Assembly: GCF_900111195.1 (NCBI RefSeq)
Contig: NZ_FOGL01000013.1
Location: 1-64,000 of the forward strand
Length of the DNA: 64,000 nt
From: Gracilibacillus ureilyticus
GTDB taxonomy: Bacteria > Bacillota > Bacilli > Bacillales > Amphibacillaceae
Direction: 5' to 3'
The translations under genes were made by a program, and so were the position numbers. The notes under the pieces were generated by a model that was not told the origin of the DNA, searched no databases, and saw only the letters and a list, made by a program, of their open reading frames with translations. This document shows positions 38,733-61,796 of the stretch, one piece after another (the stretch's first letter is position 1; the number at the start of each line of letters is the position of its first letter).

Positions 38733-39070
38733 TATTAATACATCCTTTCCGTACAATCAAATTAATTTATTTTATAAAATTTTAGATCGGAATATATGTT
38801 AACAACTTATATCAATTTTGAATAGTAGGCACCTTTTAGTTATAGAATAACCTTTTAGTAACTATTAGATACTGCATTTATAAAAATAATTGTGTTCATA
38901 TTATTCCAGAAAAGTTACTTACTCAAAAAAACTTAAATAACGAGAGCATTTGCATTTTAATTTAAATAGTGTTTTGATTTTTAACAAGCAAGAATCATTT
39001 TTTCTATAAATGACAGGAAAGAAATAGTAAAATATAAATTTTACCATTCTTTCCCCTATCAATTTATGTT
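38733..39070. other. Intergenic region with the GTAGGCAC element
   Basis: About 340 bp with no gene. It contains the 41-bp element at 38825-38865 and the 3' end of the DoxX transcript. Confidence 0.5.
38825..38865 (-). promoter_or_regulatory. Repeated promoter element, copy 1 (isochorismatase/rib cluster)
   Basis: Plus strand GTAGGCACCTTTTAG... ends CCTTTTAGTAACTAT. It lies about 95 bp upstream of the hydrolase start and is oriented like the other copies (44386, 51828, 60270, 61756). It may recruit a shared regulator. Confidence 0.65.
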
Positions 39071-39463
39071 CTAATTACTTTTCATCTTTTTAAGCATATG
39101 ATCTATAGAATATAAATTCGAACCGGTAATAGCTATTACTAATGCCATTGTTAGGAAAGCAATATCTAGCTCATATCCACCCAAGAAACCCATTGTTAAA
39201 TTCACTTTAAAAATAGCACCAATCATTAATAAGACAATTAAGGTTGAAACAATTCTTGTTAATAGTCCCACAATTAATGCAATTCCACCTAGAACTTCAA
39301 TTAAAGCTACTACATAAGCGAAAAAACCAGGTAAACCAATACTATCAAACCAGCCAACCGTGTTTTCAATCCCACCTTGAAATTTAGCTATGCCGTGGAT
39401 GAAAAAAGAGATACCCAATACAACTCGTAAAATTAATATACTAACTTCATATTTATTAATCAT
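39071..39463 (-). CDS. DoxX-family membrane protein
   Basis: 130 residues with four hydrophobic helices: ILRVVLGISFFIHGIAKFQG, FFAYVVALIEVLGGIALIVG, IVSTLIVLLMIGAIFKVNL and IAFLTMALVIAITGSNLYSI. FxHGxAKF and EVLGGIALIVGLLTR are DoxX-family marks. In Bacillus, CatD-type DoxX proteins are co-regulated with extradiol dioxygenases under quinone or thiol stress. AGGAGGTTTAAC precedes the ATG. It is transcribed divergently from the XRE-cupin regulator at 39633, which probably controls it. Confidence 0.85.
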   Translation of the reverse strand: MINKYEVSILILRVVLGISFFIHGIAKFQGGIENTVGWFDSIGLPGFFAYVVALIEVLGGIALIVGLLTRIVSTLIVLLMIGAIFKVNLTMGFLGGYELDIAFLTMALVIAITGSNLYSIDHMLKKMKSN

Positions 39464-39539
39464 GATGTTAAACCTCCTTGTTATCGTAATCTTATTTCAA
39501 ACAAATACTTTATCTATTAAATGTTTTCTAATAGAAATA

Positions 39540-39562
39540 TTTGTTACATATAAGATAACAAA
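39540..39562. promoter_or_regulatory. Inverted repeat in the divergent DoxX/XRE-cupin promoter region
   Basis: TTTGTTA (39540-39546) and TAACAAA (39556-39562) form perfect 7-bp arms with 9 bp between. A candidate operator for the XRE-cupin regulator. Confidence 0.5.
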
Positions 39563-39632
39563 ATAAAAGTAGCATGTCAACGTTTTTTTTGTTACCATTA
39601 ATCTAGTTTTAAAATTTTGATTGGAGAGGTGG

Positions 39633-40181
39633 ATGGTTAAACTGGATATTGGGACCAAAATCAGAGCAATTAGAAATAGAAAAAAAATTACTATCGCAAA
39701 AATGTGTGAAGGAACAGGTTTATCAAAGGGGTTTATTAGCAATATTGAAAACAATAATACATCACCCTCTATAAATACATTGAATACTATTGCAGAATAT
39801 CTTGATGTACCACTCCCATATTTATTGCTAAATAAAAACCAACATATGAAAACAGTAAGAAAAAGTGAAAGAAGAACTTCAACTTTTAATCATTTAAAAA
39901 TTGAACATTTGGCATCAAAAGGCGGTTTGAGAAATATGATCGTGGAGTTTCCACCTAATACATCAATCGGAGAACCGCATTCTCATGAAGGTGAAGAATC
40001 TCATTTAGTTATAAAAGGAAGAGTTTTAGCTGAACAAGGCGAAGATTCGGTAATATTAGAGGAGGGGGATTCATTTAGTTGGAACGCAAGTGTTCCACAT
40101 TTCGTAAAAAACATTGGAGAAAGTAAAGCGATATTGTTAATATCTATTTATTCTGATACAGAATTAAAAGATGTACTTTAA
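39633..40181 (+). CDS. XRE-cupin transcriptional regulator
   Basis: 182 residues with an N-terminal XRE helix-turn-helix (KIRAIRNRKKITIAKMCEGT, then GLSKGFISNIENNNTSPSIN) and a C-terminal cupin (LRNMIVEFPPNTSIGEPHSH, EGEESHLVIKGRVLAEQGED, GDSFSWNASVPHFVKNI). The fusion is a common regulator type that senses a small ligand in the cupin barrel. GGAGAGGTGG lies just before ATG 39633; a TTG at 39621 is also open. It is divergent from the DoxX gene and sits at the head of the rib/isochorismatase cluster. A decayed relative of its cupin half is at 20023-20322. Confidence 0.9.
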   Translation: MVKLDIGTKIRAIRNRKKITIAKMCEGTGLSKGFISNIENNNTSPSINTLNTIAEYLDVPLPYLLLNKNQHMKTVRKSERRTSTFNHLKIEHLASKGGLRNMIVEFPPNTSIGEPHSHEGEESHLVIKGRVLAEQGEDSVILEEGDSFSWNASVPHFVKNIGESKAILLISIYSDTELKDVL

Positions 40182-40215
40182 AAGGAAAGGGTTAAAAATA
40201 CCTTTCCTTTTATAC
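40181..40215 (+). terminator. Terminator of the XRE-cupin gene
   Basis: AAAGGAAAGG (40181-40190) pairs with CCTTTCCTTT (40201-40210) across a ten-base loop, followed by TATAC. Confidence 0.75.
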
Positions 40216-40348
40216 ATTTAAATATAAGAAAACAACATCCATAAACACACCCGCTATACGAATATGTGTGACTTTTAATCCTCATAGTTTCTTTCTTTGT
40301 GCAAATTTGCTATTAATGTATGTGAAATTTCGCTACTCTCAACTACTA

Positions 40349-41251
40349 TTATTTTTCAAAAACGTTAGCGTATTCATTATAATCAATATCTGTATATACA
40401 TTAAAGATGACTCTTTTAAAATGATGGGGGTGTTGGTCTAACCAATTATTAACAGTTTCAATAGCTATTTCAGCAGCGTCTTTTTTGGGAAACCCAAATA
40501 CACCAGTTGATATAGCGCAAAATGCAATGGTATGAATTTCATTAAATTTGTTTGCAAGTTCTAGACAAGATTTATAACAGTTTGCCAATTCTTGTTTGTG
40601 TGTTACTGATAGAAAGGCTTCTTTAGGTACAATTGGTCCAACCGTATGAAGGATGAATCTAGAAGGCAAATTGTATGCGCTGGTGATTTTTGCACCTCCA
40701 GTCATTTCGTCCTCCTGCTGTTTTTGCATGATTTTATTACAATCTTCTCTAAGCTGAGGTCCTGCAGCTGCATGAATTGCATTATCAATACACCGATGTC
40801 CTGGTTGAAAGCACCCCAGCATATACTTATTTGCTGCATTGACAATCACATCTGCATTTAGTCTTGTAATATCACCTTTCCACAAAATAAATTTATCACT
40901 ATTCGAGTATTTTTTGGTGTGCATGATCTCAGATCCAGTCGATAGTGACTGAATGTCTACAATACCTTTCTCCTTTGCTTCCATTAGTAAAAGCTGATTT
41001 AATTCTGTTAAAACAACTTTAGGCAAAGGATTAGGTTTCCGTATTGTTAATATATCTTTCAATAATTCACGTTTATTGTGATAATCACTAGGAATTTCAA
41101 CATTTTTAAGACTATTATTTTCTTTAATAAATATATCCAGTAGATGATTAACTAGTTCTTGCTTATTGAAAAGCTGATTCTTTTCATCTTTATCTTTTCT
41201 ATCTAATGAAATAAGTGAGGAATATTCTTCTAAAACTAATTGTGCCACCAT
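40349..41251 (-). CDS. Zinc-macrodomain protein-ADP-ribose hydrolase
   Basis: 300 residues. An N-terminal helical extension of about 110 residues is followed by a macrodomain: ILWKGDITRLNADVIVNAAN, KYMLGCFQPGHRCIDNAIHA, GGAKITSAYNLPSRFILHTV and FCAISTGVFGFPKKDAAEIA. The C-x3-H-x-C arrangement in GCFQPGHRC marks the zinc-containing macrodomain class that removes ADP-ribose in SirTM operons of pathogens such as Staphylococcus and Streptococcus. It lies 20 bp downstream of the SirTM gene on the same strand, so the pair writes and erases ADP-ribose on one target. The target is not seen nearby. Confidence 0.88.
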   Translation of the reverse strand: MVAQLVLEEYSSLISLDRKDKDEKNQLFNKQELVNHLLDIFIKENNSLKNVEIPSDYHNKRELLKDILTIRKPNPLPKVVLTELNQLLLMEAKEKGIVDIQSLSTGSEIMHTKKYSNSDKFILWKGDITRLNADVIVNAANKYMLGCFQPGHRCIDNAIHAAAGPQLREDCNKIMQKQQEDEMTGGAKITSAYNLPSRFILHTVGPIVPKEAFLSVTHKQELANCYKSCLELANKFNEIHTIAFCAISTGVFGFPKKDAAEIAIETVNNWLDQHPHHFKRVIFNVYTDIDYNEYANVFEK

Positions 41252-41272
41252 CTTCCCTCCTTAAAAATCACT

Positions 41273-42121
41273 TTAATATTTTCCAATAGCCATAATTGTA
41301 TCCTGTATATCTTCTGTAAACGTTATCGTCTTTTTCTTATTCTCTTGGAACCCTTGGTGATCATTTTTATTAAAACGTATTAATGTAGCCTTTTTATTAT
41401 GATAAGTCAGCTTTTCGAATGGATACCGAATAATTCCCGGTGTATTGAATCCAACGCCCAACTCCAGATAGACAATTTTTTTATCAACAGCCTCCTGAAG
41501 AAATTCTCGGTATAATTCATCTGACTGATTCCATTTATCATCTTGAACAAAAAATTCGTTATGTCTTAAATTTACATCCATTTCTCCGTTGCATTTAGGA
41601 CACTTTGGAACTAATGAAGATGGAATTCTACAATCCTTTGTTTTTTCCAGCATTTCTTTAATGACTAATTCGTTGTAATAAAGTTTCTGGTGACATCCTC
41701 TTTCACACTGCAAGTAACCATAATTTCCTTGGATTTCAAACACCTTATCAGAAGGAATACCCGCTTTTGTGAATTGGCTTTCAACATTTGTTGTAATAAC
41801 AAAATATTTCTTATCTTTTACTAATTGGTAAAGATCCTCATATAATTTTGTTGCATCTATTTCATAAAGATTTACACTGATATGTTTTGCCCAATAGGCC
41901 CACCTTTCTTCTTGCGTCTCGAATGGATAAAAACTTGAAGAATATAAATCAGTAAAACCATACTTGTCAATAAAAGATGAAAAGTTATTTGTAAATCTTT
42001 CACCAGTATAGTCTAGCCCCGCAGCAGCTGACAATCCTGCACCACCACCGACTAAAATATATTCCGCTTCTTCTAATCTTTTCATCATTTGATTCAATCG
42101 TACTTGGTAGTCATTTCTCAT
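41273..42121 (-). CDS. SirTM-class sirtuin (macrodomain-linked ADP-ribosyltransferase)
   Basis: 282 residues of the class M sirtuins, which ADP-ribosylate a lipoylated carrier (GcvH-L) rather than deacetylating in the known cases. NAD-binding GGGAGLSAAAGLDYTGE is near residue 25. FVITTNVESQFTKAGIP replaces the usual QNxD motif, and two CxxC-like zinc pairs are in LQCERGCHQ and PKCPKCNGE. It has the typical LELGVGFNTPGIIRYPFE. ATG with GGGGGAATT upstream. It forms an operon with the macrodomain gene; no lipoate ligase LplA2 or GcvH-L gene is within the window. Confidence 0.88.
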   Translation of the reverse strand: MRNDYQVRLNQMMKRLEEAEYILVGGGAGLSAAAGLDYTGERFTNNFSSFIDKYGFTDLYSSSFYPFETQEERWAYWAKHISVNLYEIDATKLYEDLYQLVKDKKYFVITTNVESQFTKAGIPSDKVFEIQGNYGYLQCERGCHQKLYYNELVIKEMLEKTKDCRIPSSLVPKCPKCNGEMDVNLRHNEFFVQDDKWNQSDELYREFLQEAVDKKIVYLELGVGFNTPGIIRYPFEKLTYHNKKATLIRFNKNDHQGFQENKKKTITFTEDIQDTIMAIGKY

Positions 42122-42223
42122 GTCGTGAATTCCCCCTTATAATGAAAGAGTTAATTGCTTCTATGAATCAGGTTGAAAAATCTGTTGATGGTTTGACTAA
42201 TGAATATATGAGAGGTTTATTTA

Positions 42224-43189
42224 TCATTCATTAGTTACTACTATTTTCCCATTTGCCTGGTTACTTTCCATAAGTCGGTGTGCTTCTCCTATCTCATCCA
42301 ATTTAAAAACCTTTGCAATTGGAACATGAATATCATGTTTCAGGATATGGTCAAAAAGGTCATTCAATAAATCTTTTTTTATAAATGTGCTCGTAAATTG
42401 TGTCAAATACGTATTTGTTGGTATATCAATCATAGGTTCAAAATGATCCATAACCCATTCTCCAGAAAGTATACCAGTCATACATACTTTTCCGTGTTCT
42501 GCGACAAGTTGTAATGAATTTTTCAATGTAGCGGTACCAACTAACTCTAATACGTTGTTTACTCCATTTGGCATAATAGATAATACTTGTTCCCGTAAAG
42601 TCCCATCTTCCAGCAGTACGTGATCAGCTCCGTAATGTTGTAATAAAGAAATTTTCTTTTCATCCCGGGTAGTTGAAAATACAGTTAATCCAACACTTTT
42701 AGCAAGTTGTAATGCAGCTAAGCCTACTGAACTAGTCCCACCTCTAATTAATAATGTCTCATCCGCTGTAACTTTTAATGTCTCAAATAAGGAAGCATAG
42801 GCCGTATAATACATTTCTGGAATGGCAGCTAATGTGATCCAATCGATATCATGTTCAATAGAATAGACTTGATTAGCAGGAATTAAGGTATATTCTGCAT
42901 AACTCCCGTCAAAGTCCCTGCCTAGACCTCCCATTAAGGAAACAATGTGTTGTCCGGTTTGAAAGTCACTGTCAGAAGGATCTAGAATTTCACCAACACA
43001 TTCGATTCCTATAATTCGTGGTAATTTAACAGATGGAGAATCTCCTTGTCGTGTGAAAATTTCTGATCGATTAATACCGAACGCTTTTATTTTAACCAAA
43101 ACCCATCCAGGCTTAACACATGGCAAAGGGACATTCCTTACAACTAATTCTTCTGCAGAACACGCTTTTTCTAATACAACGGCTTTCAT
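42224..43189 (-). CDS. Zinc-independent MDR oxidoreductase (quinone oxidoreductase type)
   Basis: 321 residues of medium-chain dehydrogenases. GroES-like half: VLVKIKAFGINRSEIFTRQG, LPRIIGIECVGEI. Rossmann half: LLIRGGTSSVGLAALQLAKS followed by TTRDEKKISLLQHYGADHVL. No zinc ligands are seen, so it is probably an NADPH:quinone or enone reductase. AAAGGACTGAAGGT lies upstream of ATG 43187-43189. It is 100 bp upstream of SirTM on the same strand and could be in its operon; redox genes are frequent neighbours of SirTM operons. Substrate unknown. Confidence 0.85.
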   Translation of the reverse strand: MKAVVLEKACSAEELVVRNVPLPCVKPGWVLVKIKAFGINRSEIFTRQGDSPSVKLPRIIGIECVGEILDPSDSDFQTGQHIVSLMGGLGRDFDGSYAEYTLIPANQVYSIEHDIDWITLAAIPEMYYTAYASLFETLKVTADETLLIRGGTSSVGLAALQLAKSVGLTVFSTTRDEKKISLLQHYGADHVLLEDGTLREQVLSIMPNGVNNVLELVGTATLKNSLQLVAEHGKVCMTGILSGEWVMDHFEPMIDIPTNTYLTQFTSTFIKKDLLNDLFDHILKHDIHVPIAKVFKLDEIGEAHRLMESNQANGKIVVTNE

Positions 43190-43305
43190 TACCTTCAGTC
43201 CTTTCTAGGTGTTCTTTGTTTCATTAAAATCACTTCTCAAATTTCCACTAAAGATCTTACTCCAAAAATTGACCAACCAGTAGAAAGAATATACTTCATT
43301 TATAA

Positions 43306-44205
43306 TTATTTGATTGACTCATAATATTCCTTAGCCACAGTAGTATACTCTTCTTTATCTAAATCTACCTTAGCATTTAATTCTGTAACGGTTTTGGTAT
43401 CTAATGTTGCACTTACTTTATTAATTACTTCTTCTATTTCAGGATTATTATCTAACACTTCATTGCGAATAACTGGAGCTAAGTTATATGGTGGCCAAAC
43501 TTGTTTATCATCTTCCAGTAATGTAAATTCCTCAGTATTTGTTAATTGCCCCTCTGTTGTATATGCTGGCGCCACATCTGCTTCGTCATTTTTTAACACT
43601 TCATACTTTATGCCATTATCATATACTTTTGATGATTTCCAATTAAATTCCCCATATACTTTTTCCAACAATGGAATACCATCTTCTCGCTGATCAACCT
43701 CACCTTGAGAAGCAAATCTAATTTCACTTGCATGTTCTTGCAGATCTGAAATAGTAGTAATCCCTAATTCCTCAGATACTTCTGTACGAATAACAAGACC
43801 AGCACCATCATTAGCTTCTGAGTAATCCAGCCATGTTAAATCAAACTGCTCATCGTATTCTTGTTTTACCGTTTGATAAACCTCTTCAGGATCTGTAATT
43901 AAATCCATATTCAGTATTGTTAAAAGACCGGTTCCCGTATACTCAGGATATATATCAATTTCATCATTAAGGATAGAGGTGTGGATGACAGATCCGGTGA
44001 TATTTGGCATACGTTCCACATCATACCCCGCATCTTCTAGCGCTAATGCATAAAGTTCTCCAACTATCAAATTTTCAGTAAAATCTTTTGTACCAACACG
44101 AATCGTTGTATCACTCTCTGCCTGATTATTTCCACATGCGACTAAAGCTATTAGCAAAATTAGACCAGTAACTCCTACCAGTATTTTTTTGATTCTATTG
44201 TTCAT
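43306..44205 (-). CDS. Glycine betaine/choline-type osmoprotectant ABC transporter, substrate-binding lipoprotein
   Basis: 299 residues. A lipoprotein signal peptide has the lipobox LVACG (Cys24). The mature protein is an OpuAC/OpuCC-type binding protein: IRVGTKDFTENLIVGELYAL, EIDIYPEYTGTGLLTIL, KNDEADVAPAYTTEGQL and LAPVIRNEVLDNNPEIEEVI. These motifs bind quaternary ammonium compounds. The permease and ATPase genes of the same importer are at 48246-50436, separated from this gene by a PTS/ChbG module. AGGGGGAAAAATA precedes the ATG. A copy of the GTAGGCAC element lies 180 bp upstream (44386). Confidence 0.88.
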   Translation of the reverse strand: MNNRIKKILVGVTGLILLIALVACGNNQAESDTTIRVGTKDFTENLIVGELYALALEDAGYDVERMPNITGSVIHTSILNDEIDIYPEYTGTGLLTILNMDLITDPEEVYQTVKQEYDEQFDLTWLDYSEANDGAGLVIRTEVSEELGITTISDLQEHASEIRFASQGEVDQREDGIPLLEKVYGEFNWKSSKVYDNGIKYEVLKNDEADVAPAYTTEGQLTNTEEFTLLEDDKQVWPPYNLAPVIRNEVLDNNPEIEEVINKVSATLDTKTVTELNAKVDLDKEEYTTVAKEYYESIK

Positions 44206-44385
44206 TATTTTTCCCCCTATAATTTCTCTTATTTGTTAGCATGCATGGATCACTCTTCTATAGAATATCCCAGAACCACTAGAAATAATTGTCGAATATA
44301 TCTTAAATAAAGCTCCTTTCTGATTTCTCACAACAATAAAAAGATGTACTAGTATTATTTTAAAAAAAAAGTTAAATATGGTGAA
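44206..44385. other. Leader of the osmoprotectant binding-protein gene
   Basis: No gene. TAAAAT-like -10 sequence follows the element at 44386 on the minus strand, so this should be the promoter and 5' leader. Confidence 0.45.
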
Positions 44386-44426
44386 GTAGGCACTTTTTTA
44401 TTAGATAGTAACCTTGAGGTAACTGA
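44386..44426 (-). promoter_or_regulatory. Repeated promoter element, copy 2 (osmoprotectant binding protein)
   Basis: Plus strand GTAGGCACTTTTTTA... ends CCTTGAGGTAACTGA. On the minus strand its end abuts TTCACC, with TAAAAT 17 bp further on, so the element overlaps the putative -35 box. Confidence 0.65.
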
Positions 44427-44454
44427 TATATCGTAGAATTACCAGAGGAAGTTA

Positions 44455-44483
44455 GGTTAACCCCTAAAATTCAGGAGTTAACC
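44455..44483 (-). terminator. Hairpin after the ChbG gene
   Basis: GGTTAACCCCT (44455-44465) pairs with AGGAGTTAACC (44473-44483). The T-run is lacking. Confidence 0.45.
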
Positions 44484-46916: not shown

Positions 46917-46939
46917 TTTTTCTCCTCCTTTTTATATAT

Positions 46940-48245: not shown

Positions 48246-48854
48246 TTACAATTTTCGTTCAAATTTACTTAATATAGTATTAGTTACAATTGCAAGACCT
48301 GCTGCTAAAATACTACCCCAGAGAATTTTCACAGTATTAACTGTCCTTAGTCCATCATTTAGAATACTTCCCAATCCGCCAGCATTAATAAAAGCGGCGA
48401 TGGTTGCTATCCCAATTGTTGTAACAACCGAAATTCGGATTCCTGTAAATAATGCTCTTTTTGATAATGGGATTTTTATCTTAATAAGCAATTGCATTTT
48501 AGTCATTCCAATACCAGTTGCTGCTTCAGTTACAGCAGGATCCACTTCATCGAGGCCTTCTAGAAAATTCCGTAATAATACATATTGATTATATAAAACA
48601 AGAACGATAATAGCAGTAGTTTTTCCTAACCCAGTTAATGGTATTAATAAAGCAAAAAGAGCTATACTTGGTACCGCATAAATCACCGAAAAAAAGTAAA
48701 CTAATGTCTTTGACAATAATCTAGAGTAAATCGATATAATTGTTAGAAAAGCTGCTAGTATAAGGGATATCATTAAAGTGATAACCAACATTTGTATATG
48801 CTCTAGTAATGGATACAATAACTTGTCTGGGTATTCTAAAGCATACTCTATCAC
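48246..48854 (-). CDS. Osmoprotectant ABC transporter permease (OpuCB/OpuBB-like)
   Basis: 202 residues with five or six hydrophobic helices (LVITLMISLILAAFLTIISI, LVYFFSVIYAVPSIALFALL and others). The ABC permease EAA-type loop is EAATGIGMTKMQLLIKIKIP. LNDGLRTVNTVKILWGSILA is typical of the OpuCB branch. The ATG overlaps the end of the ATPase gene (ATGA), so both are coupled. Together with the ATPase and the permease at 49783 it makes the core of a betaine/choline importer. Confidence 0.88.
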   Translation of the reverse strand: MIEYALEYPDKLLYPLLEHIQMLVITLMISLILAAFLTIISIYSRLLSKTLVYFFSVIYAVPSIALFALLIPLTGLGKTTAIIVLVLYNQYVLLRNFLEGLDEVDPAVTEAATGIGMTKMQLLIKIKIPLSKRALFTGIRISVVTTIGIATIAAFINAGGLGSILNDGLRTVNTVKILWGSILAAGLAIVTNTILSKFERKL

Positions 48855-49621
48855 CTTAACCCCTCCCAGAACTGCTCTTGACTCCGTGATGATTCAATCA
48901 GTGAATATACAAATTCATCAGCTGGGTTTGCTACAATATTTCTAGGTGTGTCGAATTGAGAGACTTTACCACTATTCATAATAACTACTCTAGATCCTAG
49001 TTTAAACGCTTCATTAATATCATGAGTCACTAGTAAAAATGTCTTATTCAATCCTCCGTGAATGCGTAACAATTCTTCTTGAAGACTAAGTCGTGTGATG
49101 GCATCCACCGCCCCTAGAGGCTCGTCCAATAACATAATTTTCGGATCAACTGCTAATGCTCTGGCTAGCCCAATTCTTTGTTGTTGTCCACCAGATAACT
49201 GGGATGGATATCGATTCATAAAATCATTGGCATCTAAACCTACTAAGTTTAGGAGATATGCAACTCTATCGTTAATCTTTTTTTTATTCCATTGTAACAA
49301 TTTAGGTATAGTTGCAACATTCTGAGCAATAGTCATGTGTGGGAAAAGACCAATTTGTTGAATAACATACCCAATCTTTCTACGTAAACGAATAGAGTCA
49401 ATGTTTGCAATATCTTCACCGAACAAACTAATAGAACCTTGACTTGGTTCGTATAACTTATTAACCATTTTAAGCAATGTTGTCTTTCCAGATCCAGATG
49501 AACCTAATATAGTAATAAATTCACCTTCTTCAATACTGAGGTTCACTTTATCGACTGCATAATATTGTGCATGCTTAAATTTTTTACTTATATTATGGAA
49601 TTCAATTGCTTTTTGGGTCAT
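48851..49621 (-). CDS. Osmoprotectant ABC transporter ATPase (OpuCA/OpuBA-like, no CBS domains)
   Basis: 256 residues. Walker A GSSGSGKTTLL, Q-loop YVIQQIGLFPHMTI, ABC signature LSGGQQQRIGLARAL, Walker B MLLDEPLGAVD and His switch LLVTHDINEAF. It stops shortly after the ATPase domain, so it lacks the tandem CBS domains of full OpuCA, which sense ionic strength; regulation is therefore different. ATG 49619-49621 follows GGGAGG. The stop overlaps the start of the downstream permease. Confidence 0.9.
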   Translation of the reverse strand: MTQKAIEFHNISKKFKHAQYYAVDKVNLSIEEGEFITILGSSGSGKTTLLKMVNKLYEPSQGSISLFGEDIANIDSIRLRRKIGYVIQQIGLFPHMTIAQNVATIPKLLQWNKKKINDRVAYLLNLVGLDANDFMNRYPSQLSGGQQQRIGLARALAVDPKIMLLDEPLGAVDAITRLSLQEELLRIHGGLNKTFLLVTHDINEAFKLGSRVVIMNSGKVSQFDTPRNIVANPADEFVYSLIESSRSQEQFWEGLR

Positions 49622-49782
49622 AAAAACCTCCCACATCCATTATTTATTGGATTTCCACTACTCTATATTACTTTTTTGAACTCTATTTTCCTTCATCTAC
49701 TTTAGTATCCATTTAATTTCGCATTATCCAATATCGCACTCTTTTTATGAATAATTTCTGCAATATCTGGATTTGCTTCTTA

Positions 49783-50436
49783 CTACTTTAAGTATTTATA
49801 TCTCATCAGCATTCTATTTATTAATTCTATAATAAACGATGCTAGTATGGTCATTAACCCAACAGTAATACCACCTATTACAAGTAAGTCTGTCCTGTTA
49901 AGGCCTAGACCAGTAAAAATAATCTCTCCGATTCCACCACTTCCTATTTTGGCTGCTAATGTGGCGCTGGCAATTATTTCTATTGTTGCGATTTTAATTC
50001 CTGTAAATATCAAGGGCAAGGCTAATGGCAATTGAACCTTCCAAAATACTTGTCTCTCCGTCATTCCCATCCCATATGCTGATTCAATCAAAAATCCAGG
50101 GACTTCTTTAATGCCTACAACAGTATTCATGAGAACAGGTGGTACTGATAATAGGACAAGCGCAATAATCGCTGACTTTATACCAGTACCCATAATCGGT
50201 ATTAACAAAAGTAAAATCGCAAGACTTGGAATAACTCTCAACACCTGAAAAAAAGGTATAATTTTACTTTCCATTTTTTTATACTTAAAGCAAACATATC
50301 CACACGAGATACCAATGATAATTGCAATGAGTAAAGCAATCAAACTGACTTCTAAATGCTCTTTCACTGCAATTAAAAAATCACCCATGTTTTCAGCAAA
50401 ATAGTCTTTCATTTGAAGCCATATATTATTATCCAA
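49783..50436 (-). CDS. Osmoprotectant ABC transporter permease (OpuCD/OpuBD-like)
   Basis: 217 residues with five or six membrane helices (VSLIALLIAIIIGISCGYVC, FQVLRVIPSLAILLLLIPIM, KIATIEIIASATLAAKIGSG). The EAA-type loop is ESAYGMGMTERQVFWKVQLP. GGIGEIIFTGLGLNRTDLLV is typical of OpuCD-type permeases. The start is TTG 50436 with GAGGAGATTTG upstream. It lies 160 bp above the ATPase gene on the same strand and heads this half of the importer operon. Confidence 0.87.
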   Translation of the reverse strand: MDNNIWLQMKDYFAENMGDFLIAVKEHLEVSLIALLIAIIIGISCGYVCFKYKKMESKIIPFFQVLRVIPSLAILLLLIPIMGTGIKSAIIALVLLSVPPVLMNTVVGIKEVPGFLIESAYGMGMTERQVFWKVQLPLALPLIFTGIKIATIEIIASATLAAKIGSGGIGEIIFTGLGLNRTDLLVIGGITVGLMTILASFIIELINRMLMRYKYLK

Positions 50437-50562
50437 ACAAATCTCCTCTCATCTTTAAATGATTATAAATATAAAGCTAAGCAACACGGCGTTTATCGTC
50501 TGTAAGTTTACACTTATTGCTACATCACAAAACATATCAGTCATTTATCCCTATCATCATTT

Positions 50563-51411
50563 CTAGGATGAAAAGTAGCTACATTTACTACATTCATCTT
50601 TAATCGTTTTGACTTCATCGAACTCTTCCTCTAATATTGGTATGATTTTTTTATAAGCATCTTTTTCATACCATTGAGGGAGTTTTATATCATCATAAAT
50701 TTTTTTAATTCCCATCTGATCGGTTCGATTACCTTTTCCTCCATTACAAAATGAGTACGTATCTAATACAACAGTATCTGTTGCCTCTTTAAATAACTTC
50801 ATCACTTTTTTTGTCATTGGTAGGATGGGGAAATGGATATTCTTGTAGGGATCCCCGCTTGAATGATTTCCTTTAAAGCTCTTAATCTTGCTGGAATTGG
50901 TGGCGCAAAAGGTGTGAAAATTTTCCTTTATTTTCGCTATCTGTTTCTATAGTCATACTAACAAATATTTTAACCCTGAATTCCATAAACAATTCAATAT
51001 CCCGCATAACTAATGGCGAACGTGTGTGATTCATTAGAAAATCAATATCGTCAATAAATGTAAGCATACTTTCTAATATTGCTTCTGTTAATCTTTCTTT
51101 TGCTTCTATCCATTGATACGGATCAGTTGCTGTACTCATAAAGATGGAGATACGCTGATCTTTCTTTTTTGCTTTTTTATGTCATTTTTCAATAAGGTGC
51201 TTGCATTTGACTTTATGTCAACATAACTTCCCCATTCTTCTCCTCTATATCTAGCCTTTGGCATTTCTCTAACATAACAATACTTACAAGCAAACATTCA
51301 GCCAACATAAGGATTTAATGAAAACGTAAAATCATTGTTTGCAACACATCCATTTGCTGGAGTCAAAATTGTTTTAGATACAATATTTTTAAAATTTAGC
51401 AAGTTAGTCAT
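50563..51411 (-). pseudogene. SPL-family radical SAM protein (spore photoproduct lyase-like), multiply disrupted
   Basis: Combined minus-strand frames give NIVSKTILTPANGCVANNDF, FSLNPYVG-stop-MFACKYCYVREMP, KARYRGEEWGSYVDIK, then MSTATDPYQWIEAKERLTEA (51139-50882), then RLRALKEIIQAGIP and finally VMKLFKEATDTVVLDTYSF (50817-50563). This matches the SplB-like radical SAM proteins. The first Cys of the CxxxCxxC iron-sulfur motif is a TGA stop (51298-51300). There are also frame changes in an A-run near 51150, near 50895 and near 50820. It cannot make a working enzyme. Confidence 0.75.
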
Positions 51412-51827
51412 CTCCTTTTTCAAGTGATTGAACTTGTTCAACAGGAGAGGATCTTTTGAGGTCAACATTATGATTAAATTAATATTCCTTTAAATACACT
51501 TAATATTTATAAAACAATATTTAATGATTTTCTTCCGCCCAATTACTTTCCATTTACTTGTTTCTGTACCTAACAAAATTCCTTGATTGAAAACTTCCAT
51601 AAATTGAATCCAAGTCTCACCGTCAATTACTCACCACCTAAAAACATAGATGGGTCAATAGTACTGTAAATGTCTAACGTTATTATATTTGCACAATTAA
51701 AGCATCCTACATTGGCCGGTAGCTAGTACTATGCGAAACTCATAAAATGATGCATGACTCACAAATTTAGTAAATTAGTGAAACCTCTCCATACAGTCAT
51801 AATAAAAGCTTTAGTATCAACTGAAAA
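51412..51827. other. Intergenic region without a recognised gene
   Basis: About 415 bp downstream of element copy 3; likely leader DNA of the radical SAM pseudogene. Confidence 0.4.
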
Positions 51828-51868
51828 GTAGGCACCTTTAGGTTTTATAGGAACCTTTTAGTAACGAT
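51828..51868 (-). promoter_or_regulatory. Repeated promoter element, copy 3
   Basis: Plus strand GTAGGCACCTTTAGG... ends CCTTTTAGTAACGAT. It lies between the GH1 stop and the radical SAM pseudogene, in the same orientation as the other copies. The next gene downstream on that strand is the pseudogene, about 415 bp away. Confidence 0.6.
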
Positions 51869-51938: not shown

Positions 51939-53399
<1,461 letters not shown>

Positions 53400-53429
53400 T
53401 TACTCATTTTCTTGAAAATTTTGATTTTT

Positions 53430-54665
53430 TTATTTTGATTGAATATTTTGCAACTCGTCACTTATTAAGTGTCCGTACTTGTCAGCAAGTCCCATTGGAA
53501 GGGGGGAAATTATACTTTCAAAATACTTTCCATATTCCTCTTCCGGAACAAAATAATACCAAAAATCATTAGCATAACAAATTAACATTGTAATCTCCAT
53601 ATTAGAAGCCGATTTTATTTTCTCAGCAAGGCTTGTAACACATTCTCCAGGAAATGTAATAAAAGATACTGGTCCAATTAGATAAATATAACTCTCTAAT
53701 TCAAATAAAATATTATTTACACTTTGTTTCCTTTTTACTTCTTTTTTAAAAATTTCTGGTACATCTGGGTTATCAAGTATATTAATACCTGCAAGATTCT
53801 TATCTTTTTTGGGGGAATATTCTTGCTTGAGGCTAACTTTCTTCACTTTAATATCGTCCAGATCTATTCTTGACTCATTAAAGTTATTCAGAACCTGATT
53901 TGAAATTCCTGTTCCAAACTCGATTACAGTGTCATACGTATTATCATTTGTAAAATGTCTACTACTCACATCACCTGCAGCACCATTCGTCAGTAAAACT
54001 GGTGAATCCCATTTCTCTGATATATTTTTTCGAATATTCCCTAGTAAATCCGCACTAAACTTTAAAGAATTTTCTTTTAAAATGGTTGGATGACAGCTAA
54101 TATTAGCAAAACTGCCAATAACCTTATCTTCAGAGTTTTTGAATCGGATGACATGAAAGCTGTCATCATATGAGCCGCTTCGCACATTTCTATTCCCATA
54201 ATAACCATTTATATGTGTATTTGAGTAATAGGCTTCTACTGACTCTAGATTATGTAGAACTTCCTCAACGGATAAAAATATTTTTTCTTTCACTATATTT
54301 AAATAGTCTTTTTCTAATATCTTTTCCTGGTCTTCATTTGATACATATTGTGGCAGAAAAACATGCGGACCTGAGTGCGTGTGTGTGCCACTGACGATAA
54401 TATTCATTACAGGAATTGAAAAACGATTAGAAATTGCTTCTCTTATCTCTTCCGTGAAGGATTTGATTACTACTATGAAATCTAAAGATACAAATAGGAC
54501 CCTCTCACCATTAATCTCTAATAACATCGTGACACATAGTAAAGGATCTAACGCTCCATTACTTATACCTCGTCTTAATGGATAGTTAAAATCAATAGTA
54601 TAACCGCTGAGGTCCATTGGTTTTATAGGTGTAATATCTTGTTCCGAAATCGCACATTTTAACAT
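53430..54665 (-). CDS. Neutral/alkaline ceramidase-like hydrolase in a PTS operon
   Basis: 411 residues resembling the N-terminal domain of neutral/alkaline non-lysosomal ceramidases (zinc amidases). Family marks: AISEQDITPIKPMDLSGYT, GALDPLLCVTMLLEINGERV, and SGTHTHSGPHVF with zinc-binding His residues; NGAAGDVSSRHF is a further block. It is shorter than ceramidases (about 650 residues) and has no signal peptide, so it is probably cytoplasmic. ATG 54663-54665 has GGGGAGG upstream; the frame is open 27 codons further without such a site. It lies between the PTS and GH1 genes, so I infer a role in modifying the imported phosphorylated sugar. Its substrate is unknown. Confidence 0.78.
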   Translation of the reverse strand: MLKCAISEQDITPIKPMDLSGYTIDFNYPLRRGISNGALDPLLCVTMLLEINGERVLFVSLDFIVVIKSFTEEIREAISNRFSIPVMNIIVSGTHTHSGPHVFLPQYVSNEDQEKILEKDYLNIVKEKIFLSVEEVLHNLESVEAYYSNTHINGYYGNRNVRSGSYDDSFHVIRFKNSEDKVIGSFANISCHPTILKENSLKFSADLLGNIRKNISEKWDSPVLLTNGAAGDVSSRHFTNDNTYDTVIEFGTGISNQVLNNFNESRIDLDDIKVKKVSLKQEYSPKKDKNLAGINILDNPDVPEIFKKEVKRKQSVNNILFELESYIYLIGPVSFITFPGECVTSLAEKIKSASNMEITMLICYANDFWYYFVPEEEYGKYFESIISPLPMGLADKYGHLISDELQNIQSK

Positions 54666-54838
54666 GTAAGTCCTCCCCTCATTTCTTATGAATTTATTCT
54701 TGTTTTTCAATGTTATAAAGTTGTCAGAGCCATATATCAGCCCCAATATCTTTTTTTCTATAATGGAAATAATAGTAAAAATTGTGATGATAAAGAATAT
54801 CTATAAAAAGTGAGGAGTTTATCCTCACCTTTTAAGGC

Positions 54839-56695
<1,857 letters not shown>

Positions 56696-56853
56696 TTATT
56701 TTATTTTACATTTTTTGTTATATTATTTTTTCCAGGTCACACACTAAATAAAACTTGCTATGTCTATAAATGTAAAGTCAGCCTAACACCACGTAATTAA
56801 ATTCCTAAACTTTAAAATTTTTCTGAATATCTTCAGATCTGCAATTTTACATA

Positions 56854-56922
56854 TAAAAAACCTAAATCGACCCTTTTTACTTTAGAAGGTCAATTTAGGT
56901 TTTGCCTAATAAGTCACAATCC
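56854..56922 (-). promoter_or_regulatory. RAT site and overlapping terminator before the PTS gene
   Basis: On the minus strand GGATTGTGACTTATTAGGC followed by AAAACCTAAATTGACC, which pairs with GGTCGATTTAGGTTTT and ends TTTTTATATG. Classic LicT-type arrangement. Confidence 0.85.
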
Positions 56923-56931
56923 TAAATAGAA

Positions 56932-57765
56932 TTATTTATTTTTAACTATTCTTTGTATATGAATTGTTAAGTAAAGCATTTCTTCTTCAGTCAACTGATA
57001 TCGATGTTGACTCTCGACGAATTTCTTGATTTTTTCGGTGCATTTATACGCTTCCGGATATTTCTTTTTAATAACATTTAAGAGATCATCCTCAGATTCA
57101 CCCTTGTAATGATTGCCCTTCACCAATCTGTGGGCAAGGAATTTTAGATGAGTGATAAACCGATAGTAATTTAACGAGTTATCATCAAATTCAATCTTAA
57201 AGTGATATTTGATGATCGTTATAATATCTTGCGTCACCTTTGTCATATCGACAACATTACTCATATCTTCACTAAACTGAGCATTTACCAAATGTAATGC
57301 GATAAAACCCGCCTCATCTTCAGGTAATATTATATGAAACTGCTCAAAGATCATATTTAATGCTTCAATTGCAATTTCAAACTCTTCTTTGTAAAGTTGC
57401 TTTGTCTCCCAAAGCAACCCATTTTTTATCGGTATATTGTTTCTATGTCGCTCTATAGCAAAATGAATGTGATCTGTTAAAGAAATGTAAATACTATTAT
57501 CTAGCTTTTTACCTAATTCCATCTTTGCGTAGTTAATGATTTTCTCAGATAATTCCATATACTCTATAGGGATGTCAGCTATTAGCGTTTTGAATTTTGC
57601 CGTTATATTTTCATCTTCCAAAGTAAAGATTTTATCAATCTTGTTCTCATTTATTTCATCACCAGCTTTTTTATTAAAAGCTATCCCACGCCCCATGACA
57701 ATGACTTCTTCTTCTTTCTTTACTGAGATAATGACATTGTTATTAAGTATTTTTAAAATCTTCAC
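56932..57765 (-). CDS. BglG/LicT-family antiterminator (controls the PTS-ceramidase-GH1 operon)
   Basis: 277 residues. The RNA-binding domain reads MKILKILNNNVIISVKKEEE, then VIVMGRGIAFNKKAGDEINE. PRD1 contains LTDHIHFAIERHRN and GFIALHLVNAQFSE; PRD2 contains YRFITHLKFLAHRL and YLTIHIQRIVKNK. The start is GTG 57763-57765 with GGGGGTG upstream. It has a RAT upstream, but the terminator that should overlap it is not evident. It is closely related to the antiterminator at 29180 and less so to that at 47004. Confidence 0.88.
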   Translation of the reverse strand: MKILKILNNNVIISVKKEEEVIVMGRGIAFNKKAGDEINENKIDKIFTLEDENITAKFKTLIADIPIEYMELSEKIINYAKMELGKKLDNSIYISLTDHIHFAIERHRNNIPIKNGLLWETKQLYKEEFEIAIEALNMIFEQFHIILPEDEAGFIALHLVNAQFSEDMSNVVDMTKVTQDIITIIKYHFKIEFDDNSLNYYRFITHLKFLAHRLVKGNHYKGESEDDLLNVIKKKYPEAYKCTEKIKKFVESQHRYQLTEEEMLYLTIHIQRIVKNK

Positions 57766-57787
57766 TTAGACACCCCCACAAAAAAAG

Positions 57788-57843
57788 AGCACACCACTAC
57801 TTACAAATATCATCGGTTTTGCCTGATTAAACAGTCACAATCC
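57788..57843 (-). promoter_or_regulatory. RAT site before the antiterminator gene, with a degenerate terminator
   Basis: On the minus strand GGATTGTGACTG...GGCAAAACCGAT (57843-57811) is a good RAT. The downstream partner arm expected to pair with AAAACCGAT is missing; only a T-run after GTGTGCTC is seen. The RAT may no longer control termination, or the hairpin is unconventional. Confidence 0.65.
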
Positions 57844-57923
57844 TAATTTAGAATACGTTTTCTAAATTGAGTTATAATTTAAATTACAAACCAATATTAC
57901 ATAGAGTAAGTATATTTGTAAAG

Positions 57924-57945
57924 TAGTTACTTAAAGGTAACTATT
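57924..57945 (-). promoter_or_regulatory. Short palindromic relative of the repeated element
   Basis: GTAGTTACTTAAAGGTAACTAT has 7-bp inverted arms TAGTTAC and GTAACTA. On the minus strand it is followed by TTTACA and, 17 bp later, TAATAT, making a promoter for the antiterminator operon. The GTAACTA half is shared with the five longer elements. Confidence 0.6.
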
Positions 57946-57981
57946 GAGAAAAGCTTTCTATAGCTGTGAAGTTAAAAGAAA

Positions 57982-58950
57982 TTAACTATAATTTTTTTCT
58001 AAATAAATTACACTAAACAGCGAATCCGGATCAGTCCATACGCTATGGTTTTTGAATCCACTATTCTTTGCCATTAATTCAAATGTTTCAAGGTCAAATT
58101 TGTATGAATTTTCAGTATGAATTGTTTCATTTTTTCTAAATTCTATTAAATCTTCTCCAATTGTCACGAATTGATCCTGCAGGCTTTTTAAGTGCATTTC
58201 CACTCTTTCTTGTTTCTCATTAAAGAAAGCAAAATGCTCAAACCGCGTAATATCAAAATTACCATCAAGTTCGCGATTAATTCGCTTCAATAAATTTAAG
58301 TTAAAGGCAGCAGTAACCCCGGAATCATCATTATAAGCCCTATTAAGAATTTGATGAGATTTTTTCAAATCTAACCCAATTAGTAATCCATCGCCAACCT
58401 TCAACATATTAGATATCCTTTTTAAAAATTCCTTGCCTTTTTTCACTTCAAAATTTCCAAAGGTTGAACCAGGGAAGAAGATAACTTTTTTCCCTGGAAC
58501 GAATGGTAAATCAGGTAATTTTGTGTAATCCGCACAAATTGCTGTAACATTTAGCTTAGGATTTTCATTCGCAATTTGTTTTGCTGATTCCAATAAAAAC
58601 TCTTTTGATATATCTACCGGCATATATGAAATAGACTGTTTCATTTCATTTAGCAAGATTTTCACCTTTTCGCTGCTCCCGCTACCAAAATCCACCAACG
58701 TTACTTGCTCACCAACACATGAGGTGATTTCTTTGGCGTTTTTTAACAATATTGATAATTCTGTTCTGGTTGGATAATATTCTGGTAGTGCAGTAATATT
58801 TTCAAACAAAGCAGAACCTGCTTCATCATATAACCATTTAGAATCTATATATTTCTTTTCACTTTTCAAACCCATTAGCACCTCAGTTCGAAATGATCCT
58901 AACGAAGGTTGAAAATCTAATATCTGAATATTTTTACTGGTAATACTCAT
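57982..58950 (-). CDS. egtD: EgtD: L-histidine N-alpha-methyltransferase
   Basis: 322 residues. It makes hercynine (trimethylhistidine) from histidine with three S-adenosylmethionine, the first step of ergothioneine synthesis. SAM-binding region VTLVDFGSGSSEKVKILLNE and family blocks YDEAGSALFENITALPEYYP, TRTELSILL and FFPGSTFGNFEVKKG are visible, as are RVEMHLKSLQDQ and ENSYKFDLETF. The length is typical. The ATG overlaps the egtB stop (ATGA), so both are translated together. GGATAAGAA provides a weak ribosome binding site inside egtB. Confidence 0.92.
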   Translation of the reverse strand: MSITSKNIQILDFQPSLGSFRTEVLMGLKSEKKYIDSKWLYDEAGSALFENITALPEYYPTRTELSILLKNAKEITSCVGEQVTLVDFGSGSSEKVKILLNEMKQSISYMPVDISKEFLLESAKQIANENPKLNVTAICADYTKLPDLPFVPGKKVIFFPGSTFGNFEVKKGKEFLKRISNMLKVGDGLLIGLDLKKSHQILNRAYNDDSGVTAAFNLNLLKRINRELDGNFDITRFEHFAFFNEKQERVEMHLKSLQDQFVTIGEDLIEFRKNETIHTENSYKFDLETFELMAKNSGFKNHSVWTDPDSLFSVIYLEKNYS

Positions 58951-60182
58951 TTCTTATCCTCCGCTAAACGAAATCCGCTAAACTGCCATTGCTTTTCAGG
59001 TTGGAAAAAGTTTCTGTATGTAAGCCTTATATGAGAAGCAGGTGTCACACATGAACCACCTTTCAATACCATTTGATTTGCCATAAACTTAGCATTATAC
59101 TCCCCCAGTGCACCTTCTAATGGTTTATTTCCCGGATAAGGGCTGTATGGGCTCATTGTCCACTCCCACACATTTCCAAACGCATTATAGTTCGAATCTG
59201 TCTTTACAACAGGGTGATAGTTACCCGATTCGGCGAAATTCCCCTCAATTTCTTCATTAGAAAATGCATGTTCCCATTCTGCTTCTGTTGGAAGCCTTTT
59301 TCCTGCCCATCTAGCGTAGGCATCAGCCTCATAATAGCTAATATGTGTGACAGGTTCATTTACGTTTACTTCTTTCATTCCAGATAAAGTGAAATAAAAC
59401 CATGCTCCATCTTTCTTTTCCCAATAAAGAGGTGCCTCCCATCCTTCTTTTTTTAACGTAGACCATCCGTCAGATAACCAATATTGTACTTTTTCATATC
59501 CTCCATCTTCTATAAATGCAATGAATTCTTTATTAGTCACTGTTCTGGACGCAATAGAATAAGCATTTAACCATACTTTATGCCGGGGAGATTCGTTATC
59601 AAAGGCAAATCCTTTTCCATCATGTCCGATCTCTACTAAACCTTCTTCTAAATGGATCCATTCCATATCAGAAGTGTATGAATCATCATGGGAAGAGTCA
59701 TTGAAATAAGCAGGTTTTAAAGGATTTATGGAAAAGTTATATTTGATATCTGTTAAAAGTAATTCCTGGTGTTGTTGTTCATGATTCATACCAATTTCAA
59801 TGATTGGTTCAATCTTTTTTATTAGTTCTTGATCTGCTTGATTGAGCATATTTAAGATATTTTCTTCTACATATTTACGATATTTCACAACTTCCTTTAT
59901 TGTTGGTCTAGAAAGCAGACCACGATTTGGTCTTGCAAAAGGTTTCCCAATCGTCTCATAGTAAGAATTAAATAAATGGTCAAATTGCGGATTGAATTCT
60001 TGGTAATTACTAGCATGAGGTATGAGTACAAACCTTTCAAAGAACCATGTTGTGTGGGCAAGATGCCATTTTGCAGGACTAACATCTGAAGTAGACTGAA
60101 TGATAAAGTCTTCCGCTTCTAAGGGTGCTACAATTTGATCAGTGAAACCTCTTATTTTTGCAAATCGAGATTGGATGTTCAT
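58947..60182 (-). CDS. egtB: EgtB: hercynine oxygenase/sulfoxide synthase
   Basis: 411 residues: a DinB-like metal-binding N-terminal half with PAKWHLAHTTWFFERF and NHEQQHQELLLTDIKYNF (His residues for the iron), and a C-terminal sulfatase-modifying/FGE-like half with VTHISYYEADAYARWAGKRL, PTEAEWEHAFSNEE, FGNVWEWTMSPYSPYPG and LKGGSCVTPASHIRLTYRNF. EgtB joins hercynine to a thiol donor by an oxygen- and iron-dependent reaction. It is followed by egtD. Elements EgtA, EgtC and EgtE are not in the window. ATG with AAAGGAGGAT upstream. A copy of the GTAGGCAC element lies 90 bp upstream. Confidence 0.92.
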   Translation of the reverse strand: MNIQSRFAKIRGFTDQIVAPLEAEDFIIQSTSDVSPAKWHLAHTTWFFERFVLIPHASNYQEFNPQFDHLFNSYYETIGKPFARPNRGLLSRPTIKEVVKYRKYVEENILNMLNQADQELIKKIEPIIEIGMNHEQQHQELLLTDIKYNFSINPLKPAYFNDSSHDDSYTSDMEWIHLEEGLVEIGHDGKGFAFDNESPRHKVWLNAYSIASRTVTNKEFIAFIEDGGYEKVQYWLSDGWSTLKKEGWEAPLYWEKKDGAWFYFTLSGMKEVNVNEPVTHISYYEADAYARWAGKRLPTEAEWEHAFSNEEIEGNFAESGNYHPVVKTDSNYNAFGNVWEWTMSPYSPYPGNKPLEGALGEYNAKFMANQMVLKGGSCVTPASHIRLTYRNFFQPEKQWQFSGFRLAEDKK

Positions 60183-60269
60183 TTTATATCCTCCTTTTTT
60201 TCTTTACTTCGACATCTTCTGTATCAGTGAACCTATAATTATCGTAAAACCATTATAAATAACTGTAAA

Positions 60270-60310
60270 GTAGGCACTTAAAAGTTATATGGAAACCTAA
60301 AAGTAACTAT
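60270..60310 (-). promoter_or_regulatory. Repeated promoter element, copy 4 (egtB-egtD)
   Basis: Plus strand GTAGGCACTTAAAAG... ends CCTAAAAGTAACTAT. On the minus strand the element abuts TTTACA, with TACGAT 17 bp further, so it overlaps a -35 box. The egtB ATG is about 90 bp downstream. Confidence 0.7.
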
Positions 60311-60356
60311 TATATACAAAATACAGGTGAATCATTTTCTATATTGAATTCCATTT

Positions 60357-61394
60357 TTATTTATTACGTTCTAAGAACTCCTGAAGATCACTAGTGAATT
60401 TCACTGGATTCTTTTCCATTAGACTATGATCTCCATGTTCTTCTTCTGAATAAATATACAGAGTAGAATTAGGGATAGCTGAGTGCAACCATTGCTGACT
60501 TTGTAAATTGGGACTAAGCTTACCTGAGAAGATTGCGGTGGTTACATCTATCTTATTTTGAATGACATCACGCCAGTCATTGGTACCATGATCATACATA
60601 ACACGGATTAAGTATTCCATATCATTGTTAGCAATTTGATTAGATAGGCTTGTTGAATTTTCGGAGTATAGTGTGCTAGAACTATCCATTTTCGAAAGAT
60701 CTATAGATGCCATTGCATTCTCTAACTGTTCAGAAGAATCAAACGGTACCCCTAATTCCATACGTTCTTCGTCTGTCATGTTAGGTAGTGGGACGATTAC
60801 AGGTGGCTGATCGACAAAAGCAACTTTGTTTATTTTTTTTGTTCCGTAAAGATCAATATAACTCCATAGCATCGCAGCACCCATTGAATGGCCTACATAA
60901 TTTGCGGATTTTATATCCAAATAATCAGTAAATTCCTTAAGGTCAGTAGCATAACGGGATATGCGATTTCCAAACAGTACATCTTCCGATAACCCTTGAT
61001 TGCGAGGATCTAGGGTATAAACCCGGTAGTTCTCACTTAGAAGGTACATTACATTCAAAAAGTGTGCACCATTAACTGACCATCCCGGAAGAAGAATCAG
61101 GGGTTCGCCAGTACCTGCAGTCCAATAAGACAGTCTCACACCATCGCTGGTTAGGAATGAGCCGATATTCAGATCTTCAAAGTCTGATAATTTATTAGGC
61201 ATTCCTTCAATCCTATTTGGAAAAGCAAAGTCTTTTCCAAGTACAGATATGGCTGAATAAGCCGAATTTTCAGTTAATATTACCTTAGAAGATTCATTGT
61301 TAGACATATTAGTTTCTTGAACATTCGAACAACCAATTAATATAACGCTTAAAAGTAATAATATCTTGACTAATCCAACTGCTTTCTTTTTCAT
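60357..61394 (-). CDS. Lipoprotein alpha/beta hydrolase
   Basis: 345 residues. A lipoprotein signal (MKKKAVGLVKILLLLSVILI, Cys22 in LIGCSN) anchors it outside the membrane. The alpha/beta hydrolase fold follows: GVRLSYWTAGTGEPLILLPG, RVYTLDPRNQGLSEDVLFG, nucleophile Ser in YVGHSMGAAMLW, Asp near VAFVDQPPV, and His in EEHGDHSLMEKN. ATG 61392-61394 has GGGGAGA upstream; another 24 codons are open without a good site. It is monocistronic, with a long leader that holds an orphan RAT-like site and an upstream copy of the GTAGGCAC element. Substrate unknown. Confidence 0.82.
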   Translation of the reverse strand: MKKKAVGLVKILLLLSVILIGCSNVQETNMSNNESSKVILTENSAYSAISVLGKDFAFPNRIEGMPNKLSDFEDLNIGSFLTSDGVRLSYWTAGTGEPLILLPGWSVNGAHFLNVMYLLSENYRVYTLDPRNQGLSEDVLFGNRISRYATDLKEFTDYLDIKSANYVGHSMGAAMLWSYIDLYGTKKINKVAFVDQPPVIVPLPNMTDEERMELGVPFDSSEQLENAMASIDLSKMDSSSTLYSENSTSLSNQIANNDMEYLIRVMYDHGTNDWRDVIQNKIDVTTAIFSGKLSPNLQSQQWLHSAIPNSTLYIYSEEEHGDHSLMEKNPVKFTSDLQEFLERNK

Positions 61395-61668
61395 ATCCAA
61401 TCTCCCCTTGTCATTAATTTTGATGATTTGGGATCCTATCAGTTCCAATGGGTTTACCGATCTCATCTTTCAATTATTAGCTGGCACTAAAATAGCGCTT
61501 TATCAATTACAGGTAATACACTCGATAAAACATAGTAACAATTATTTGAAATAGCCAATCACTGCAATGGAATTTTGGTTTAAACAAACTCATCTATTGA
61601 TATCTTTTTATAATATTTAGTGTATCGCCTCATAGAAATAATTTGGACTATTCACCAAATAAATCAAA

Positions 61669-61700
61669 CTAGGTTTTGCATGATGTAACCCTCACAATCT
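61669..61700 (-). promoter_or_regulatory. Orphan RAT-like sequence in the leader of the lipoprotein hydrolase
   Basis: On the minus strand AGATTGTGAGGGTTACATCA followed by TGCAAAACCTAG keeps the main RAT features GATTGTGA and GCAAAACC. No overlapping terminator is visible. It lies about 275 bp upstream of the ATG and could be a relic of a lost PTS operon. Confidence 0.55.
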
Positions 61701-61755
61701 ATTGTATTAGCTCACTATTATCATAGATGGTATATTACTAACAGATAATTGTGAA

Positions 61756-61796
61756 GTAGGCACTTTAAGGTTATATGGTAACTTTATTGTAACTAT
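61756..61796 (-). promoter_or_regulatory. Repeated promoter element, copy 5 (lipoprotein hydrolase)
   Basis: Plus strand GTAGGCACTTTAAGG... ends CTTTATTGTAACTAT. On the minus strand it abuts TTCACA with a TACCAT-like -10 box 17 bp further. Confidence 0.65.

Follow-up and report, generated by a model that had tools for sequence, protein, structure and literature searches.

A repeated promoter element in Gracilibacillus ureilyticus as the probable operator of an HxlR-family regulator

The first 64,000 nucleotides of contig NZ_FOGL01000013.1 of Gracilibacillus ureilyticus (hereafter the window) carry the same promoter element five times, each time in front of a minus-strand gene. Which regulator reads this element, in which direction does it act and what do its targets have in common? 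We propose that the element serves an HxlR-family (MarR/DUF24) regulator as its operator, that this regulator is most likely encoded by the gene at 30514–30864, and that it activates the adjoining promoters; we put the probability of this reading at about three in four. What was an unlabelled repeat would become a proposed regulator with a defined predicted operator and five target promoters.

Anatomy of the element and of its promoters

The five copies described in the initial annotation were all confirmed where it had placed them:

38825–38862, minus strand: site 1, 38-bp element; −35 TATTCA (38819–38824), −10 TAACAT (38796–38801)
44386–44423, minus strand: site 2, 38-bp element; −35 TTCACC (44380–44385), −10 TAAAAT (44357–44362)
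51828–51865, minus strand: site 3, 38-bp element; −35 TTTTCA (51822–51827), −10 TATTAT (51799–51804)
60270–60307, minus strand: site 4, 38-bp element; −35 TTTACA (60264–60269), −10 TACGAT (60241–60246)
61756–61793, minus strand: site 5, 38-bp element; −35 TTCACA (61750–61755), −10 TACCAT (61727–61732)

A degenerate 38-mer built from these copies matches five times in the window and not once in 100 dinucleotide shuffles. Over the 4.07-Mb genome, with up to three mismatches allowed, it finds the five copies and one further three-mismatch match, against four matches for a reversed control pattern. The genome holds no convincing copy beyond the five, all of which lie within one 23-kb region. Taken by itself, the octamer GTAGGCAC shows no enrichment (25 genome places, compared with 43 for the reversed control), so that it is the long pattern which is special.

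The repeat had been described as a 41-bp element with internal direct repeats at a period of about 11 bp. It is real, but its conserved core measures 38 bp plus the promoter, and the 11-bp period, although present (column self-similarity 0.61), is weaker than that at a shift of 19 bp (0.81). Because self-similarity is best at this shift, the element can be divided into two 19-bp units in tandem, GTTAC-N6-GTTCC-TAT and ATAAC-N6-GTGCC-TAC. Thirty-six distinct sites, namely those of the window and of Saliterribacillus persicus and the matches of the genome scan described below, give the consensus GTTACTAAAAGGTTCCTATATAACAAAAAGGTGCCTAC, after which comes a hexamer such as TTTTCA; the Bacteroidetes match L059 was excluded from the site statistics. 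In this consensus, 19 columns were fixed and one was limited by the search pattern, and only the other columns constitute independent evidence.

The −35 hexamer begins at the base directly after the element, and this holds for all five window copies rather than for several of them as first thought. Of the 34 sites that are distinct over 70 bases, 29 have a TAnnnT −10 at a spacer of 17 bp; no alternative spacer between 13 and 20 bp is seen in more than six, and the third −35 base is a G, as in TTGACA, in a single site of the 34. These columns lay outside the search pattern. Not all scan sites are independent, since many belong to closely related Paenibacillus. A −35 nearly devoid of the G of TTGACA, combined with a good −10 at a 17-bp spacer, is the layout of an activator-dependent promoter. 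Two HxlR dimers would sit side by side, one on each 19-bp unit, with activation at the poor −35 that the downstream unit abuts.

The same regulator might use the same sites for repression, blocking RNA polymerase at the −35 and leaving on oxidation. YodB and CatR are repressors released on oxidation; HypR (YybR) is an activator. The contact between the sites and the −35 suits repression, as does the short distance (88 bp or less) that separates the site from an HxlR open reading frame (ORF) in most other genomes, as would be expected for an autorepressor. On the other hand, the −35 hexamers are uniformly poor, and the nearest solved relatives by sequence are HypR and HxlR, the latter an activator according to the available part of PMC7835342. 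We therefore consider repression distinctly less probable than activation.

All five copies are wholly intergenic, as judged on a gene list compiled by hand, and each reads into the minus-strand gene below it; a random 38-mer between 30514 and 64000 would be wholly intergenic with a chance of about 0.14. The placement of the copies on the same side of minus-strand genes was thus correctly described in the initial annotation, which had named occurrence inside genes or in random orientation as the mark of a dispersed repeat; neither is seen. A dispersed repeat or a chance resemblance devoid of any regulatory role could explain why the copies are restricted to one genome region, but not why every copy lies between genes and points into one, with co-conserved −35 and −10 and homologous targets in other genera. 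The conserved promoter geometry already contradicts this explanation, to which we attach almost no probability.

A palindromic sixth copy had also been proposed at 57924–57945. The palindrome is a GTTAC-N6-GTAAC at 57926–57941, one unit only, and this arrangement is found at four places in the genome, compared with seven per strand for the control. Scored as a full element, with position weights that include the five window copies, it reaches −12.7 at best, and all of 12 Markov-sampled windows have a higher top score (−8.6 to 3.7). It does not rise above chance and was rejected as a sixth operator.

Linkage of the element to HxlR-family genes

The window contains a single HxlR gene, the candidate owner of the sites:

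30514–30864, minus strand: HxlR-family regulator gene (PF01638, 121.4 bits for a cut-off of 20.8); 116-residue ORF with a TTG start, the likely start being an ATG three codons in

An exact scan of 84,980 genomes returned 24 stretches in 21 genomes. Nineteen of the 21 have an HxlR-family ORF no more than 88 bp from a site; in a 20th, a Bacillota metagenome-assembled genome (MAG; L054), the distance is 1.66 kb. Distances run to the ends of mechanically called ORFs, whose starts are in some cases placed too early. Counted by stretch, an HxlR relative is present in 20 of the 24 and a relative of the window MarR protein (63057–63509) in none; S. persicus enters twice among the site neighbourhoods (L036/L037 and L061). 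The initial annotation had asked whether the motif occurs next to an HxlR-type gene, and it does so in these genomes. It had left the choice between an HxlR-type and a MarR-type regulator, and linkage and grouping (see below) favour the former, whereas the latter is not supported, with no relative of the window MarR gene in the 24 stretches. The element occurs in Paenibacillus, Niallia, Neobacillus, Cohnella, Sporomusa and Saliterribacillus, and in full in two Pseudomonas species, between an HxlR gene (38–40% identical) and an MDR gene; this type of operator is therefore not confined to Bacillota.

The window protein is 63–79% identical to the site-linked HxlR proteins of Bacillota. A FastTree of HxlR domains, which carries no support values, places it with the site-linked proteins of the six Bacillota genera above, whereas the four other HxlR genes of its genome fall elsewhere. 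Its N-terminal CPV cysteine aligns with that of the YybR and HxlR chains and is kept in the site-linked Bacillota proteins; it may serve to sense an oxidant or electrophile. Two other HxlR genes of the genome, one of them divergent from an hxlA-like gene, carry GTGCCTAC and then TTAC in the intergenic region on their divergent side, which likewise speaks for an HxlR-type owner.

Under a relaxed criterion (up to two mismatches, 150 genomes including that of G. ureilyticus itself), the element was found at 28 places in 19 genomes and the reversed control at 26. Apart from the five window copies and the four of S. persicus, single two-mismatch matches are thus at chance level and mean little; they were kept only beside an HxlR gene, by eye (G073, G009, G102 and G095). 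Four clustered copies are present in S. persicus (G051). Among 16 congeners, only one has a two-mismatch match, at a different HxlR–MDR pair.

Several observations weigh against our proposal. There is no site upstream of the window HxlR gene, the nearest being 8 kb away. The 21st genome of the exact scan, a Bacteroidetes MAG (L059), has no HxlR gene in its 6.5-kb contig, although this match is probably due to chance. Of six relatives whose two-mismatch matches were picked by eye, one (G049) has no HxlR gene within its 16 kb. Finally, the sites at the two other HxlR genes of the G. ureilyticus genome are partial, with scores of 20.7 and 11.5 compared with at least 42 for the five. As to the missing adjoining site, the hxlR gene of S. 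persicus is flanked by ydjC and the sirtuin operon and stands at a site; the corresponding position in the window holds only the site at 44386, with the HxlR gene 13.5 kb away, which suggests that the window HxlR gene has been relocated.

The partial sites would allow for cross-talk or for another owner of the element, which could be the MarR protein encoded 1.3 kb from site 5, a further HxlR paralogue or an OmpR-type two-component regulator. Regulators of this last type recognize similar-looking direct repeats beside the −35, and the isolated position of the window HxlR gene would be accounted for. The site-linked regulators elsewhere, however, belong to the group of the window gene, and ownership by the MarR protein was rejected on the absence of its relatives from the 24 stretches. 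We regard another owner as improbable.

In the same genome, a gene for a 222-residue protein with two tandem HxlR domains (L031:1477–2145) is divergent from an hxlA-like gene, so named from its sequence only, with GTGCCTAC-TTACA between the two.

Target genes in the window and elsewhere

Gene content below the five sites was read from Pfam and NCBIfam matches, and the operons are deduced from gene order:

33747–38756, minus strand: probable operon of site 1, which is 69 bp upstream of the first ORF; isochorismatase (38133–38756), RibA-like (37226–37981), RibD (36139–37314), zinc alcohol dehydrogenase (34791–35885), VOC/dioxygenase-like protein (33747–34598)
40349–44205, minus strand: probable operon of site 2, which is 181 bp upstream of the first gene; OpuAC-type binding protein (43306–44205), MDR reductase (42224–43189), divergent sirtuin (41273–42121), macrodomain protein (40349–41251)
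48246–51400, minus strand: probable operon of site 3; degraded radical SAM gene (about 50540–51400), permease (49783–50436), ABC ATPase (48851–49636), permease (48246–48854), with PF00528 and PF00005 matches for the ABC genes
57982–60182, minus strand: ergothioneine-type genes below site 4, which is 88 bp upstream of egtB; egtB (58947–60182), egtD (57982–58950)
60357–61466, minus strand: lipoprotein-like alpha/beta hydrolase (PF00561), 290 bp below site 5

The pieces of the degraded radical SAM gene are 77–78% identical to a Saliterribacillus radical SAM protein, and its first recognizable codons are placed near 51400, below site 3. The names egtB and egtD are putative and follow from the Pfam families (PF03781 and PF12867 for the first, PF10017 at 368 bits for the second). 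A relative of the hydrolase in MAG L054 likewise lies below a site, by 52 bp. One regulator common to osmolyte-type, redox and ergothioneine genes would fit this site map.

In other genomes, an OpuC-type transporter, an MDR reductase, a radical SAM protein, a sirtuin and a macrodomain protein are encoded below the sites or in the same gene runs, and SnoaL, lipoprotein hydrolase and further genes are found near them. Isochorismatase and rib genes also occur in S. persicus, where the site nevertheless precedes the binding-protein gene, so that the isochorismatase/rib target is so far seen in the window only. EgtD is present in 11 of the 150 genomes, that of the window included. None of 12 EgtD loci in the ten others (nine with a match above the Pfam cut-off) has the element within 1.5 kb on either side of the match, the span covered, beyond which a site would be missed. 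As the window genome alone among the 11 has the element at these genes, we rejected egtB–egtD as an old member of the regulon. In Neobacillus cucumis, an operon below an HxlR-linked site encodes an EgtU-like fused protein, with Lmo1422 and pneumococcal EgtUC as best matches.

The window macrodomain protein passes the NCBIfam cut-off of PRK04143, a protein-ADP-ribose hydrolase (323 bits for 272), and also matches PF01661. Its sirtuin neighbour has no Pfam match and matches NCBIfam sirtuin models below their cut-off only; it reads FEIQGN at the position where deacylases would have their histidine. In class M sirtuins, glutamine replaces the catalytic histidine of deacylases. Such sirtuin/macrodomain pairs have been connected to oxidative stress, while the targets and physiological role of Zn-Macro systems were called elusive in 2024 (both in the available part of PMC11490716). 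A pair outside a lipoylation operon would here gain a regulatory and metabolic setting.

With modest confidence, the common purpose of the targets could be the response to thiol or electrophile stress, with a supply of ergothioneine or a related betaine, which would link electrophile sensing to ergothioneine. A wider and more tentative idea, which we hold rather less likely than not to be correct, is that of a portable stress regulon in which an HxlR activator and its tandem operator jointly control ADP-ribosylation (SirTM/Zn-macrodomain), a radical SAM enzyme, an MDR reductase and an importer of the betaine type whose pocket is altered. The ergothioneine supply would be genome-specific, by EgtU-type uptake in N. 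cucumis and by egtB–egtD synthesis in G. ureilyticus. If true, such a regulon would bring protein ADP-ribosylation and the supply of small-molecule thiones together in a single response to electrophiles.

Some neighbouring features should also be noted. An apparent remnant of a second binding-protein gene lies between the permease and ATPase genes of the site 3 operon (about 49700–49780). In a soil Bacillota MAG (L056:5592–6984), a site precedes genes for a Cys-rich repeat peptide (ACGAGDDGKP-like) and a radical SAM/SPASM protein, followed by MDR, sirtuin and macrodomain genes; the peptide is perhaps modified. The gap between site 5 and the hydrolase gene (61467–61755) is long at 290 bp; Rfam gave no match at the gathering cut-off over 28000–64000, this gap included, and a leader RNA was rejected on this basis. 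Two similar sugar clusters (25604–30031 and 51939–57765), each with glycosidase, phosphotransferase system and antiterminator-like genes named by eye, are connected by direct repeats of 76% and 70%. An IS21-type pair occupies 5933–8159, with IstB above the Pfam cut-off and a neighbour that matches rve below the cut-off only. A plasmid origin was discarded: 38000–62800 has no megablast match in PLSDB, a search that detects near matches only.

Comparison with known systems

A search of titles and the beginnings of abstracts found no paper on the present operator or gene cluster. In Bacillus subtilis, two binding regions were reportedly described upstream of hxlA by Yurimoto in 2005. HxlR, the regulator of hxlAB, is an activator of the same family, and the DNA crystallized with it has the same 5-N6-5 half-site layout, as given in the available part of PMC7835342. 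The letters of these half-sites (GTATC/GATAC) are, however, unlike those of the window element, which adds to the points against our proposal. HxlR also has other target genes, in one operon rather than several, and the window protein lacks the lysine two residues after the cysteine. HypR (YybR), a redox-sensing DUF24 protein which is, with HxlR, the closest in sequence among solved structures, shares the CPV cysteine, but its target set differs from that of the window.

As in SirTM/Zn-macrodomain operons, the sirtuin and macrodomain genes of the window are adjacent, but here they stand among transporter and MDR genes under an HxlR-type site. A term search found no HxlR, OpuC or radical SAM in the main text of PMC11490716, nor HxlR, OpuC or 'transporter' in PMC4518038.

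The binding protein of the window, lastly, belongs to the same superfamily as that of the EgtU importer. The determinants of EgtU are G244 and a Y-to-F switch at position 293, according to the available part of PMC9732360. In the window protein and in four relatives, G244 is replaced by F, F293 by Y and Y341 by A, and the window transporter was for this reason rejected as an EgtU. The N. cucumis protein keeps the equivalents of K242, G244, F293, Y341 and R379, with D for N339. The pneumococcal egtU operon holds a SnoaL2-type gene (available part of PMC9732360), as do some of the Paenibacillus sites.

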